Below are positions 40,337 to 46,229 of a stretch of 64,000 nt of DNA, in pieces; positions within the stretch are counted from its first letter, which is position 1, and the number at the start of each line of letters is the position of its first letter. Source of the DNA: Lachnospiraceae bacterium (GTDB lineage: Bacteria; Bacillota; Clostridia; Lachnospirales; Lachnospiraceae); contig FZRB01000023.1 of the NCBI GenBank assembly GCA_900199595.1, positions 1-64,000 on the forward strand, read 5' to 3'. A program made the translations under genes and the position numbers. The notes beneath the pieces were generated by a model. It had not been told where the DNA came from, did no database searches, and saw nothing but the letters and a program-made list of their open reading frames with translations.

Positions 40337-42064
40337 ATGTCCAACATTTTAGAATATCTGGACTGGCGTGGGGATATACCCTTTAGTGTCAGCCCGTTTA
40401 ATGAAGTAGATAATTTAATACTTTCTGAGATATGTTATACAGATTTTGAGGGTGTCATGACGCAGGATGACACCCTTTCTATAGTTGAGGCAGCAAGGCT
40501 TTATTTTGAGATTCATACCGAAGAAGAGGTTGTAAACAGAGATCTCTTTTTTAAGCTGGCTCCTATTATATTGAAGAAGGCTTCCGAATCCGAGAGATTC
40601 AAGGATGTGATTCTGAAGAACTATATTAATCTCATAAGTGTTACGAGAGAGGAACAGTATTCGGCTGTAACCTTCGTGCTTCCGGGAGATATGATCTATG
40701 TTGCCTTCAGAGGAACAGATAATACTATCGTTGGATGGAAAGAAGACTTCAATCTTTTTTTCATGAATGAAACAGCCGGACAGAAAAGAGCCGTTGAATA
40801 CATAAATTATTATTTTAAGGATGATTCAAGAAGTCTTATGCTTGGAGGACATTCCAAGGGAGGTAATTTTGCTGTATATGCATCTGCCTTCTGTGACAGG
40901 AATATCCAGGACAGAATTGTAAATGTTTATTCCAATGACGGTCCCGGTTTCAGAGACGAGATCATAAATAAAAAGGGATATAAGAGGATACTGCCCAGAG
41001 TGATAAGTATTCTTCCGGAGGAATCTCTGGTGGGTGTAATGCTATCCAACAGATATGATAATAAGATAATAAAGGCTGATTCCAAGGGGATTGGTCAGCA
41101 TGATCCTATGACATGGCAGGTTTATGGAAAAGGATTTGTGGAAACTGATAAAAGAACTGAGGTTAGCCGTGTAGTGGATAATACTATGATGAAATGGCTG
41201 TCTGAAATGAGTGATGAAGACAGAGCAGTATTTACAGATTCCATTTTCTCAACGCTGGATACCACCGGTGCCAGGACGCTTGGTGATCTAAGCGAAGGAG
41301 GAGTGAAGGCTGTCTCAGATATCATTAAATCGTTAAAATCCATGTCTCCGGAGAAACAGGCAGAGCTGTCTCTTATGTTTAAAAGGCTTATAAAAATCGG
41401 AAGGGACGAAGCATTTCTCGAGTTTATGGATAAGGCCAAAGCCAAGAAAATAACTAAGTCCGATACTAAGTTAATTCCGGAAATGACGGAAGAAGAAAGG
41501 ACGGTTTCGGATAACAAGAAAAAACTCCGAAAGGAAATGATCGATAAAAGAACTTCCATGGAGGATATGGAAGTTACAAAGAAATCCTTTGAGATATGTA
41601 AGAAGATCATGTCCATGAATATTTATAAGGACAGCAAAGTTATCCTAGCATACATGAGTGCTCGTCATGAGGTTGATCTGAGTTACCTGATAGGGAAAGC
41701 CATAGAAGCGGGTAAGCTGGTATATCTTCCGAAGGTTGAATCAAAAACAGATATGAAGTTTTATCTTTATGATGGTAACTTAAAGCTTGGAAAGTTCGGA
41801 ATAAAGGAACCTGTCAGCAAGGCTGCTCTGGATGAAGAAATGCTGATAGAAGAAAAGGTTCTTATGATAGTACCGGGAGTCGCATTTGACATTAACAGAA
41901 ATCGTCTGGGACATGGCGGTGGGTATTATGACAGATTCTTTAATAAAGAGAATAAGCTGTTTAAGATGGCGGTTGGATATGACTATCAGATACTGGATGA
42001 TATTCCTGTTGATGAACATGATAAGAAAGTAGATACGATTGTTACTGAAAGTCAAATATTGTGA
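40337..42064 (+). CDS. DUF2974 lipase-like domain fused to 5-formyltetrahydrofolate cyclo-ligase
   Basis: This 575-residue two-domain protein has, in residues 1 to about 350, an alpha/beta-hydrolase fold of the DUF2974 (Mbeg1-like) type with nucleophile S173 in LGGHSKGGNF and FVLPGDMIYVAFRGTD. Residues about 392-575 are a 5-formyl-THF cyclo-ligase with KKKLRKEMIDKR, PKVESKTDMKFY and the nucleotide-binding RLGHGGGYYDRFF. The second domain makes 5,10-methenyl-THF from 5-formyl-THF with ATP. The sequence is continuous with no frameshift, so this is a true fusion. The relation between the two activities is not obvious. Confidence 0.88.
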   Translation: MSNILEYLDWRGDIPFSVSPFNEVDNLILSEICYTDFEGVMTQDDTLSIVEAARLYFEIHTEEEVVNRDLFFKLAPIILKKASESERFKDVILKNYINLISVTREEQYSAVTFVLPGDMIYVAFRGTDNTIVGWKEDFNLFFMNETAGQKRAVEYINYYFKDDSRSLMLGGHSKGGNFAVYASAFCDRNIQDRIVNVYSNDGPGFRDEIINKKGYKRILPRVISILPEESLVGVMLSNRYDNKIIKADSKGIGQHDPMTWQVYGKGFVETDKRTEVSRVVDNTMMKWLSEMSDEDRAVFTDSIFSTLDTTGARTLGDLSEGGVKAVSDIIKSLKSMSPEKQAELSLMFKRLIKIGRDEAFLEFMDKAKAKKITKSDTKLIPEMTEEERTVSDNKKKLRKEMIDKRTSMEDMEVTKKSFEICKKIMSMNIYKDSKVILAYMSARHEVDLSYLIGKAIEAGKLVYLPKVESKTDMKFYLYDGNLKLGKFGIKEPVSKAALDEEMLIEEKVLMIVPGVAFDINRNRLGHGGGYYDRFFNKENKLFKMAVGYDYQILDDIPVDEHDKKVDTIVTESQIL

Positions 42065-43506: not shown

Positions 43507-43543
43507 GATGACACTTTGAACAAAAGTTCAAGTGTCATCTTTT
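43507..43543 (+). terminator. intrinsic terminator after purA
   Basis: GATGACACTTTGAAC pairs with GTTCAAGTGTCATC around AAAA with one bulged T, followed by TTTT. It is almost identical in sequence and fold to the terminator at 54586-54623, with a compensating base-pair change. Confidence 0.8.
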
Positions 43544-43559
43544 CAGTATGAGGTTTTGT

Positions 43560-46229
43560 ATGAAAAAGCTTAGTATTGGAATTCTGGCGCATGTTGATGC
43601 GGGAAAGACTACTCTTACCGAAAGTATTCTCTATGATACGGGGATGATAAGGAGTCTCGGCAGGGTAGATAATGGTGATGCCTTTCTGGACACAGAAGTA
43701 CTGGAGAAAAAGAGAGGTGTTACGATTCTTTCCAAGCAGGCGATATGTATGCTGGACAGGGATAATAAACTGAATAAATCATCTGATGAGGTAAAGATTA
43801 CTATAATAGATACACCGGGACATACTGATTTTATCGGTGAAACGGAGCGCGCCCTGGCGGTTCTTGATATGGCTGTTCTACTTATCAGCGGACCGGATGG
43901 AGTTACTGCATCTACGAAACGACTGGTGGGAATGCTCAAAAGCTATAAGGTACCTTTCTATGTTTTTGTAAATAAGATGGATATGTGCCAGCGTTCTGAG
44001 GATGAGATGATAAATGAGCTCTCCCAGCAGCTGGGTGAAGGATATATAAACTATAACAGCTTCGAAGAGAACTTAGAGGAGATAGCCTCTCTGTCGGAGA
44101 GTACGATAGAGGAGTATTTTGAAAACGAAAACCTCTCGGAGGAAAGCATAAGAAGTCTTATCTTTTCCGGAAAGCTTCATCCTGTTGTTTTCGGTTCGGC
44201 TCTTAAGAATATCGGAGTAGACAGTCTTGTAGGCCTGATCACTGAATACATACCAGGGATAACTTATAAGAACAGCTTTTCAGCCAAGGTTTTCAAGGTG
44301 GGATATGAGGACGGACATAAGCTGACCTTTGCGAAAATAACCGGCGGTAGTATATCCGTAAGAAATGAGATAGATGACGAGAGACTGCGTGGTGAAAAGA
44401 TAAGTCAGATAAGAAGCTACAGTGGCGGCAAGTATGAGGCTGTGGATAAGGCTGAGGCAGGTGATACAGTTACATTTGTGGGGCTGGAGAGTACATTTGC
44501 GGGCATGGGCATCGGAGAAGAGTTCGATGAAGAACTTCCCATGAGCCAGCCGGTTCTTAGATACGAACTGGAGCTTCCTGCAGATGTTCCACTCAGAGTA
44601 TTTCTGCCGAAGCTTAAGGAACTGGCATCGGAGGATCCGCTGCTTCATCTTGAGGTAATGAATGAGGACAGAGTGAGCATTGCGGTTATGGGAGATTTTC
44701 AGATGGAGATTCTGAAAGAAACCATAAGTGAAAGATACGGCGTCTCGGTCCGATTTGTAAAGGGCAGTTTTGTATATAAAGAAACAATTAATTATCCAGT
44801 AATTGGTTACGGACATTTTGAACCCCTTCGTCATTATTCGGAGGTACAGATTCTTATGGAACCCCTTCCCCGTGGTATGGGAATTGAGATTGCCAGTGAT
44901 CTCAGCGTAAATGACCTGGAAATAAACTGGCAGAAAACCATCCTGTCGACTATTTCCGAACATCTTCCAACGGGTGTGCTGACGGGTTCGGCTCTTACAG
45001 ATATAAGATTTACCCTTATTTCCGGTAAGGCCCATCTGAAGCATACTGACAGTCAGGATTTTCGTGAGGCTGTAAGAAGGGCTGTACGTCAGGGTCTGAT
45101 GAAAACCGAAAGTGTCCTGCTGGAACCTTTGTATGATTTTGTGATAAGTCTTCCTACGGAAAGTGTGGGCAGGGCTATGACAGATATATCAGATATGGGT
45201 GGAAAATGTACTCTGGACACGGACGGAACTCTGAAGGGAAGTGCCCCTGCCAGATGCATATCCGATTATCAGACGAAGCTTACCCAGTATACCTCGGGAC
45301 AGGGAAGTATAGAGCTTAGATTTACAGGCTACTGCGACATGCCTGAGGATGTTATGGAAGAGGTAATAACCGAGAAGGGTTATAATCCTGATAATGATAA
45401 GGAAAATCCTTCGGGAAGTATATTTATAGATCATGGCGCAGGCTACTATGTGCCGTGGTTTGAATGCGAAGCTCTCATGCATCTTCCTTCCAGGGAAAGT
45501 GATTACCTGGATGTTAAGGAAGAAAGCGATGATGAGAGAATAGCCAGGGAGGCTGAGCAGATAAAACGGGCCAGGGACAGTGCAGCTAAGGGATCACTTG
45601 AAGAAGGACTTAAGGCTCTTGGTACCGATGAGATAGATGACATCCTGAGGAGTGCAACTCATTCCAATGCAGGAAAAGAAAACAGACGTACAAAACGTGT
45701 TTATCTCAGTAAGAGTTCCATTAAGGCTGAAAACAGATCTGCCACGCAGAGGAAGGCTACAGTAAGGCCGGCACTTCAGGAAAAAAAGAAATATCTTCTG
45801 GTGGATGGCTACAATATAATCCATGCCTGGTCTGAACTTAAATCCCTTCTTGATGATGATAAAGCAAGTAAGGACAGGCAGTCTCTAAGTCTTGAGTCTG
45901 CAAGATATAAGCTTCTTGATATTATGTCTGAGTATAAGGCGATGAAGGGAACAGAAGTGATAGTTGTCTTCGATGCTTATAACGTTAAGGGACATATTAC
46001 AGAGAAGATGGACTATATGGGAGTGCATGTGGTCTATACGAAGGAAGCTGAAACTGCAGATCAGTATATAGCGAGATTCACCATAGAGAATTCTAAGAAT
46101 CTTGATATAACAGTATCAACTTCAGATGGTCTGATACAGCTGATCATACGTGGTGAGAATTCGAAGATGCTCAGTGCAAGAGAACTGGAAGCAGACTATA
46201 AAACCCTTAGAGGATCGCTTGGAATATGA
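43560..46229 (+). CDS. TetM/EF-G-like translational GTPase fused to a YacP/Rae1-like NYN nuclease domain
   Basis: This 889-residue fusion has, in residues 1 to about 650, a ribosomal-protection/EF-G-like GTPase with G1 AHVDAGKTT, G3 DTPGH, G4 NKMD and the later EF-G domains. A charged linker of about 80 residues precedes a C-terminal NYN (PIN-like) domain at about 735-885, with acidic active-site candidates in LLVDGYNIIHAW, VVFDAYN and STSDGL. B. subtilis YacP (Rae1) is a ribosome-associated mRNA endonuclease. The fusion suggests a factor that both enters the A site and cuts mRNA. ATG 43560 gives the standard MKKLSIGILAHVDAGKTT start. Antibiotic resistance is not implied. Confidence 0.88.
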   Translation: MKKLSIGILAHVDAGKTTLTESILYDTGMIRSLGRVDNGDAFLDTEVLEKKRGVTILSKQAICMLDRDNKLNKSSDEVKITIIDTPGHTDFIGETERALAVLDMAVLLISGPDGVTASTKRLVGMLKSYKVPFYVFVNKMDMCQRSEDEMINELSQQLGEGYINYNSFEENLEEIASLSESTIEEYFENENLSEESIRSLIFSGKLHPVVFGSALKNIGVDSLVGLITEYIPGITYKNSFSAKVFKVGYEDGHKLTFAKITGGSISVRNEIDDERLRGEKISQIRSYSGGKYEAVDKAEAGDTVTFVGLESTFAGMGIGEEFDEELPMSQPVLRYELELPADVPLRVFLPKLKELASEDPLLHLEVMNEDRVSIAVMGDFQMEILKETISERYGVSVRFVKGSFVYKETINYPVIGYGHFEPLRHYSEVQILMEPLPRGMGIEIASDLSVNDLEINWQKTILSTISEHLPTGVLTGSALTDIRFTLISGKAHLKHTDSQDFREAVRRAVRQGLMKTESVLLEPLYDFVISLPTESVGRAMTDISDMGGKCTLDTDGTLKGSAPARCISDYQTKLTQYTSGQGSIELRFTGYCDMPEDVMEEVITEKGYNPDNDKENPSGSIFIDHGAGYYVPWFECEALMHLPSRESDYLDVKEESDDERIAREAEQIKRARDSAAKGSLEEGLKALGTDEIDDILRSATHSNAGKENRRTKRVYLSKSSIKAENRSATQRKATVRPALQEKKKYLLVDGYNIIHAWSELKSLLDDDKASKDRQSLSLESARYKLLDIMSEYKAMKGTEVIVVFDAYNVKGHITEKMDYMGVHVVYTKEAETADQYIARFTIENSKNLDITVSTSDGLIQLIIRGENSKMLSARELEADYKTLRGSLGI

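Follow-up and report, generated by a model that had tools for sequence, protein, structure and literature searches.

A Rae1-type NYN domain carried by an EF-G-like GTPase in Clostridia, a candidate mRNA nuclease of paused ribosomes

What would a ribonuclease domain do at the C-terminus of a translational GTPase? The question is raised by a gene in a 64,000-nucleotide stretch of a Lachnospiraceae genome (contig FZRB01000023.1, positions 1 to 64,000; hereafter the window), for which an earlier note, made from the letters alone, had suggested a one-protein surveillance system that enters stalled ribosomes and cleaves the message. We followed up this suggestion by computational analysis of the protein, its relatives and the genomes that carry them.

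Layout of the fusion gene and its surroundings

The longest open reading frame at the locus (43548-46229, forward strand) encodes 893 amino acids, and Pfam domains confirmed that an EF-G-type GTPase and a C-terminal NYN domain share one frame at 43560-46229 (Table 1). The start at 43560, given by the earlier note, is preferred over 43548, as GAGG lies 6 nt upstream and 11 of 20 aligned relatives begin there. The GTP-binding domain carries the motifs AHVDAGKTT, DTPGH (with His92), NKMD and GSA, and EFG_III stayed under the Pfam cut-off with 20.1 of 27 bits. Pfam NYN_YacP matched residues 750-886 with 132.8 bits (E 1.6e-38; cut-off 24.6), and the only PDB sequence matches of this part were Rae1/YacP (5mq8, 5mq9; E about 3e-18), which bears out the proposed YacP/Rae1 type. 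The stretch between the two parts (646-746) spans 61-199 aa among 101 fusions.

Table 1 Features of the fusion gene; residue numbers, here and throughout, are those of the 893-aa frame starting at 43548
Feature	Residues	Position	Strand	Remark
GTPase-NYN fusion gene		43560..46229	+	889 aa from ATG 43560
GAGG, likely ribosome-binding site		43550..43553	+	6 nt before ATG 43560; sequence read directly
GTP-binding domain	8-236	43569..44255	+	Pfam GTP_EFTU, E 1.6e-49
EF-G domain IV	410-520	44775..45107	+	Pfam EFG_IV
Domain IV tip, KHTDSQDFR	498-506	45039..45065	+	at the place of TetM PVSTPADFR
EF-G domain V	523-605	45114..45362	+	Pfam EFG_C
Extension (GSIFIDHGAGYYVPW..LMHL)	606-648	45363..45491	+	alignment
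Linker	649-745	45492..45782	+	681-741 predicted disordered
NYN_YacP (Rae1) domain	746-893	45783..46226	+	without the C-terminal tail of Rae1
Codon of D753 (Rae1 D7)	753	45804..45806	+	101/101 fused, 52/52 standalone
Codon of D809 (Rae1 D53)	809	45972..45974	+	101/101 fused, 52/52 standalone
Codon of D838 (Rae1 D81)	838	46059..46061	+	101/101 fused, 52/52 standalone
Codon of D860 (Rae1 D104)	860	46125..46127	+	101/101 fused, 52/52 standalone

An AlphaFold2 model of the fusion (77 aligned sequences) reached a mean pLDDT of 86.4 and a pTM of 0.65, from which the position of the NYN domain relative to the GTPase cannot be read. The alignment for the structure took in 76 of 80 loci; L152, L160, L177 and L179 were left out, two of them for odd motifs. 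The pLDDT fell below 50 at residues 1-3, 75-78 and the linker segment 681-741, and the NYN blocks were mostly above 85, with three at 69-78. With this model as the query, the top Foldseek matches were EF-G structures, mostly on ribosomes, and TetM (3j9y) came at rank 42.

The gene lies downstream of purA and overlaps by 4 nt with a following gene for a PASTA-domain protein. A perfect hairpin followed by TTTT (43507-43543) stands between purA and the fusion gene and ends just before the ribosome-binding site. An attenuator reading of this hairpin was rejected: 24 of 100 fused genes have a terminator-like hairpin (-10 kcal/mol or lower) in their 150 nt upstream, vs 35 of 300 controls, and 12 of 100 vs 21 of 300 have one no more than 60 nt from the start, a mild excess across fused genes and not a conserved element. 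None at this threshold was found upstream of the genes of the two nearest relatives (L112 and L113). The hairpin is probably the terminator of purA, and the fusion gene may thus depend on read-through. A conserved neighbourhood was likewise rejected, since the commonest neighbour family, an ABC ATPase, occurred at only 13 of the 63 loci (among 101) that have enough flank. At four of the 101 loci, three of which were covered by profiles, the fusion has a YlmH-type S4 protein as its direct neighbour: in L112 and L113 it lies upstream at a distance of 3 nt, and in L176 and L179 it shares 14 nt with the end of the fusion gene. YlmH takes part in ribosome quality control in B. subtilis (PMC11317155), and a link of the fusion to that process is at most hinted at by this neighbour. 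Elsewhere in the window, one open reading frame (40337-42064) joins an Mbeg1-like domain to a 5-formyltetrahydrofolate cyclo-ligase.

The GTPase part and its unfused sisters

The GTPase had been called EF-G/TetM-like, and the first half of this description stood. GTP-binding motifs with the catalytic His, together with EF-G domains IV and V, place the protein in the translational GTPase superfamily. These motifs are nearly invariant among the fusions: all 100 that contain the region (one frame is without it) keep K20, T21, T59, D88 and H92, while K143 and D145 are kept in 101 of 101 and N142 in 99. The likeness to TetM did not hold, for the protein has its own clade and no Tet tip, and reached half of the Tet cut-off (NCBIfam tet_protect, 383.9 vs 775 bits). 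Its score with the EF-G model TIGR00484 was 244 vs 659.4 bits. The tip of domain IV is a mark of the fusions, with K498 and T500 in all 101, H499, D504 and F505 in 100 each, and GG at positions 502-503 in 96 and 97; the window protein has SQ there, giving KHTDSQDFR vs KHTEGGDFR in most relatives. This tip is unlike the GSYHDVDSS-type tip of the three EF-G rows compared. Pro509 of TetM, which we take to be the tip residue that reaches the drug site, aligns with K498, a Lys in all 101 fusions.

In a quick tree of 53 rows, which took in 33 of the 101 fusions, these formed one clade (98) and 12 unfused GTPases another (98), and the two clades together stood apart from two Tet, three other protection-protein and three EF-G rows (SH-aLRT 100). 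The window protein sits on a long branch (1.28). Profile scores fell in steps: full-length fusions were mostly above 800 bits, unfused orthologues at 767-801 (class sample) or 726-766 (family sample, full ones), Tet-type and other protection proteins at about 315-507 and EF-G-like proteins at about 205-250, with an unassigned one at 292, the labels of the steps below the fusions being our reading of length, score and tip. The unfused sisters (L201-L212) are about 650 aa long, form a clade separate from the fusions and have no NYN domain; all 12 show the KHT..GGDFR tip and the C-terminal extension. The extension (606-648) is common to fused and unfused members and missing in the compared EF-G, Tet and other protection-protein rows. 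On sequence grounds, the GTPase of the fusion is neither an EF-G nor a Tet protein, with its own clade, its own domain IV tip and an unfused sister clade.

A further homologue, outside the rows of the tree, is encoded on megaplasmids of Ligilactobacillus salivarius (among them L222) and covers residues 5-645 with 43.6% identity. This unfused GTPase is annotated as tetracycline resistance and adjoins genes for ribosomal protein S14 and a putative metal homeostasis protein, which may reflect a zinc response.

Strict co-occurrence of the unfused GTPase with Rae1 was considered and dropped. In the family sample, the unfused GTPase was found (E 1e-60) in six of nine genomes with a standalone NYN domain, these being nine of the 11 listed short-frame genomes, and in none of 20 without NYN. 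The class sample does not show this pattern, with the unfused GTPase in three genomes that have a standalone NYN domain and in four without any (G233, G228, G261 and G277). As it is unlinked to Rae1 there, the GTPase can act in a role separate from the nuclease.

The Rae1 domain, its spread and its former operon

The acidic residues had been described as kept, and they are: the four aspartates D753, D809, D838 and D860 are invariant in all 101 fused proteins, none of these homologues having lost one. The counts on 101 fusions, for motifs and tail as for residues, take in all of the best 80 of 591 relatives, and those on standalone Rae1 rest on 52 distinct sequences. Other positions are less constant. 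E85 of Rae1 is kept in 52 of 52 standalone and 95 of 101 fused proteins and is Ala in the window protein; R118 is kept in 52 of 52 and 63 of 101 and is Met in the window protein; R165, in the tail, is kept in 48 of 52 and 18 of 101; and R166 is conserved in no more than 33 of the 52 standalone proteins. The change R166P, in the tail, was isolated among suppressor mutations of B. subtilis Rae1 interpreted as loss-of-function changes (PMC6613710). Past Rae1 D104, 46 standalone proteins continue for 61-68 aa and six more for 66-68, the fusions for 27-84 aa and the window protein (past D860) for 33 aa. A tail shorter than 50 aa was thus found in 39 of 101 fused vs 0 of 52 standalone proteins. With at least 50 aa in the other 62 fusions, loss of the tail is not a general result of fusion. 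Compared with the two nearest relatives, L112 and L113, the NYN domain shows the lowest amino-acid change of the protein's parts, synonymous sites being near or at saturation: pN was 0.095 and 0.100 (NYN), 0.137 and 0.152 (GTPase), and 0.199 and 0.257 (linker).

The earlier note had asked how far the fusion is spread, and we found it widespread in Clostridia, where a genome nearly always has one NYN_YacP domain, either fused or standalone. The window's own genome has a single match, the fusion, so that the separate yacP gene that might have performed the role instead was not seen. Of 200 genomes from the same family, 180 have NYN_YacP (175 of them with a single match); the domain was likewise found in 98 of 148 genomes of the class (a single match in 96) and 86 of 149 of the phylum (never more than one, with one match below the cut-off). 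Frames of at least 700 aa made up 132 of the 150 matches listed (among 185) in the family, 52 of 100 rows in the class and 11 of 86 in the phylum (one below the cut-off), and frames under 220 aa 11, 46 (one below the cut-off) and 74, respectively; the few rows between 220 and 700 aa stay unsorted in these tallies. At loci L001-L071, 29 have GTPase and NYN in one frame and 42 have NYN alone. A scan of genome contigs showed that 80 of the best 80 of 591 relatives carry the same fusion, which is therefore no chance product. Their titles name Lachnospiraceae, Oscillospiraceae, Eubacteriaceae, Anaerovorax, Fusibacter and Intestinimonas, and the nearest among these 80 are L112 (an uncultured Clostridiales bacterium, 76% identical) and L113 (Lachnospiraceae bacterium AC2029, 75%). 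Exceptions to one match per genome in the family sample are G039, G076, G130, G154 and G173, with two each, and several stop codons lie within the NYN match of G031 and G094, copies that may have decayed or been misassembled. NYN domains 47-51% identical to that of the window are encoded in two fecal records that are labelled as phage and carry no annotation (MT835514.1 and MT835563.1).

Among 72,556 plasmid records, 1,291 had some match and in two the match extended over 80% or more of the protein, these being large non-mobilizable replicons of Agathobacter rectalis and Monoglobus pectinilyticus. A fusion of A. rectalis (L224) is annotated as TetM/TetW/TetO/TetS-type tetracycline resistance, and such labels may inflate counts of resistance genes in the gut.

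The usual place of standalone rae1 is that of B. subtilis, cysS-mrnC-rlmB-rae1-sigH. At 15 of 20 standalone loci, rlmB and sigH lie in the stretch, the start of sigH minus the end of rlmB being 486-678 nt in 13 and 2285 and 2387 nt in two. For the fused genomes we read the stretches around mrnC in 20 of the 21 that have an mrnC match (G439 was left out), and none of the 20 stretches held a rae1 match. Ten contain both rlmB and sigH, with a difference of -55 to +333 nt, too small for a 510-nt gene; in the window's own genome, the rlmB and sigH-like frames overlap (difference -12) and the rae1 slot is empty. The other ten say little, as rlmB and/or sigH fall outside the stretch. The sigma gene in five of the ten informative genomes, the window's included, matched B. 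subtilis SigH with only 155-172 bits; SigH models were the best match of each of the four that were checked, over the cut-off in two and just below it in the remaining two (182.9 and 206.7 of 208). Near the fusion gene itself, mrnC, sigH, nusG and cysS were found at none of 100 fused loci and an rlmB homologue at three (the window not counted). Since the slot is empty in all ten fused genomes that have rlmB and sigH together, rae1 has moved: it appears to have left its usual operon and become the tail of an EF-G-like protein in many gut Clostridia. In the window's genome, with no second NYN_YacP found and a closed rlmB-sigH slot, the fusion is the only candidate found for the work of Rae1.

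The opposite course, fission of the fusion, was rejected. Six standalone Rae1 of Lachnospiraceae (L092-L097) fell inside the fused clade of a quick NYN tree with 40 of the 101 fusions, but a tree in which the fused NYN domains were constrained to one clade scored above the free one and was not rejected. Locus order also counters fission, as rlmB directly precedes rae1 in five of the six (L093-L097), and in four of these five the stretch also holds a sigH homologue (at a distance of about 2.3 kb in L093); neither rlmB nor sigH was seen at L092.

Possible roles and known systems

Messenger RNA in the A site is open to attack by Rae1 (PMC12320835), and the destabilisation of mRNA by Rae1 depends on translation (PMC10100781, PMC12320835). 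We lean towards the explanation that the fusion is the clostridial form of Rae1, delivered by its GTPase to paused ribosomes to cut mRNA. An ancestral rae1 would have moved out of cysS-mrnC-rlmB-rae1-sigH, probably once, to become the C-terminal domain of a distinct EF-G-like GTPase. The GTPase, with GTP, would bind paused or stalled ribosomes in the position of EF-G, and its domain IV tip would probe the A site; the nuclease on its flexible linker would then act like Rae1 and cleave the message of that ribosome in or near the A site. Binding by the GTPase would replace a docking that the C-terminal tail may partly perform in standalone Rae1, and the benefit could be the freeing of stalled ribosomes or a timed decay of mRNA. 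Both the cutting by the fusion and its control by GTP are what we infer from the domains and their relatives. Competition for one and the same A site is expected between domain IV and the Rae1 domain; with the site of Rae1 filled, cutting would have to follow the withdrawal of domain IV or happen elsewhere on the mRNA, either of which a linker of such length permits.

We counted in favour of the Rae1 reading the single copy, the empty slot, the aspartate quartet, the GTPase motifs, the tail shortened only in fusions and its R166P mutation in B. subtilis, the slow change of NYN, the tree with the fused NYN domains as one clade, the pattern of unfused GTPase and standalone NYN in the family sample and the attack of Rae1 on A-site mRNA. 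Against it we counted the A-site competition, the unfused GTPases without NYN, the lack of a conserved neighbourhood, the 62 fusions that keep a tail of at least 50 aa, the other RNA targets of NYN enzymes in other systems and the divergence of the window copy (long branch, Ala for E85, Met for R118, SQ for GG in the tip, no tail). A more specific form of it is tentative: a GTP-licensed endonuclease, in which the GTPase would test for an empty A site and Rae1 would cut after GTP hydrolysis and withdrawal of domain IV. If true, one protein would time the choice between waiting and destroying the mRNA.

An explanation that we hold unlikely, though worth serious weight, is that the two domains have separate activities, the GTPase being an accessory elongation factor and the linker keeping Rae1 near ribosomes, with GTP hydrolysis not controlling the cutting. 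The sister clade of unfused GTPases, the four class genomes that have one without any NYN, the long and partly disordered linker and the kept motifs of both domains would all fit. The shortening of the tail in fusions only speaks against it, suggesting that the GTPase took over part of the docking, and so does the appearance, in the rows examined, of a single fusion event that was widely kept.

An antibiotic ribosome-protection protein, which would remove tetracycline or a like drug with the RNase adding to resistance, was proposed in 2015 (Atkinson 2015, PMC4342817), and we consider it improbable. Although Tet models and TetM are the best matches and NCBI labels one gut-bacterium fusion as tetracycline resistance, the score is far below the Tet cut-off, the clade lies apart from the two Tet rows of the quick tree, and Lys stands in place of Pro509 throughout. 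The near-core presence of NYN_YacP in the family, mostly in long frames, and the finding of only two plasmid records with a match covering most of the protein are further points against it. Just as poorly placed is an action of NYN on tRNA or rRNA, in processing or in cutting a stuck tRNA, for which the GTPase would give access to the ribosome. The same article cites a proposed role of the domain in rRNA and tRNA maturation (PMC4342817), RlmB, the operon neighbour of Rae1, is an rRNA methyltransferase, and an RlmB mutation affects the same pathway as Rae1 (PMC6613710); the effect of the characterised relative, Rae1, is on mRNA and depends on translation, as cited above. That the nuclease of the window's lineage is dead and the GTPase works alone, as its Ala and Met substitutions, missing tail and long branch might suggest, is very improbable given the four kept aspartates and an NYN domain that, compared with the two nearest relatives, changes more slowly than the other parts.

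If the Rae1 reading is true, stalled ribosomes are dealt with in a large group of gut bacteria by a GTPase-delivered nuclease, and a family partly labelled tetracycline resistance in databases is a housekeeping translation factor. The moved rae1 is also a natural test of why standalone Rae1 needs its tail.

With B. subtilis Rae1/YacP (5mq8, 5mq9), the fusion shares the NYN_YacP family and the residues D7, D53, D81 and D104; Rae1 is a standalone protein of 170 aa with a conserved tail, encoded in the rlmB-rae1-sigH operon, whereas the window fusion is encoded elsewhere in the genome and the tail is missing. With TetM/TetO (3j9y) it shares an EF-G-like translational GTPase; these have an SPV-type domain IV tip vs KHT in the fusion, have no such C-terminal extension and form a separate clade. 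SmrB, RelE and other ribosome-associated nucleases are described as cutting mRNA on a halted ribosome, which is the outcome proposed for the fusion; they have other folds and no GTPase. NYN enzymes of other systems act on other RNAs. In the literature searched, we found no other paper on the fusion and no experimental test of it, and the main text of PMC8547433 contains neither NYN nor YacP. The architecture itself was already published: the available text of Atkinson 2015 (PMC4342817) describes Tet proteins of ten clostridial species with a YacP-like NYN domain and suggests resistance. Those proteins have the same architecture, and the window gene appears to be a member, judged by description and not against their sequence list. 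As far as the literature searched goes, it is new that rae1 was relocated, that the GTPase forms a separate clade and that the tail was lost. Where that text files its proteins of ten species under Tet, the fusions analysed here have a clade of their own, a wide spread and an NYN domain that the evidence points to as a relocated Rae1.
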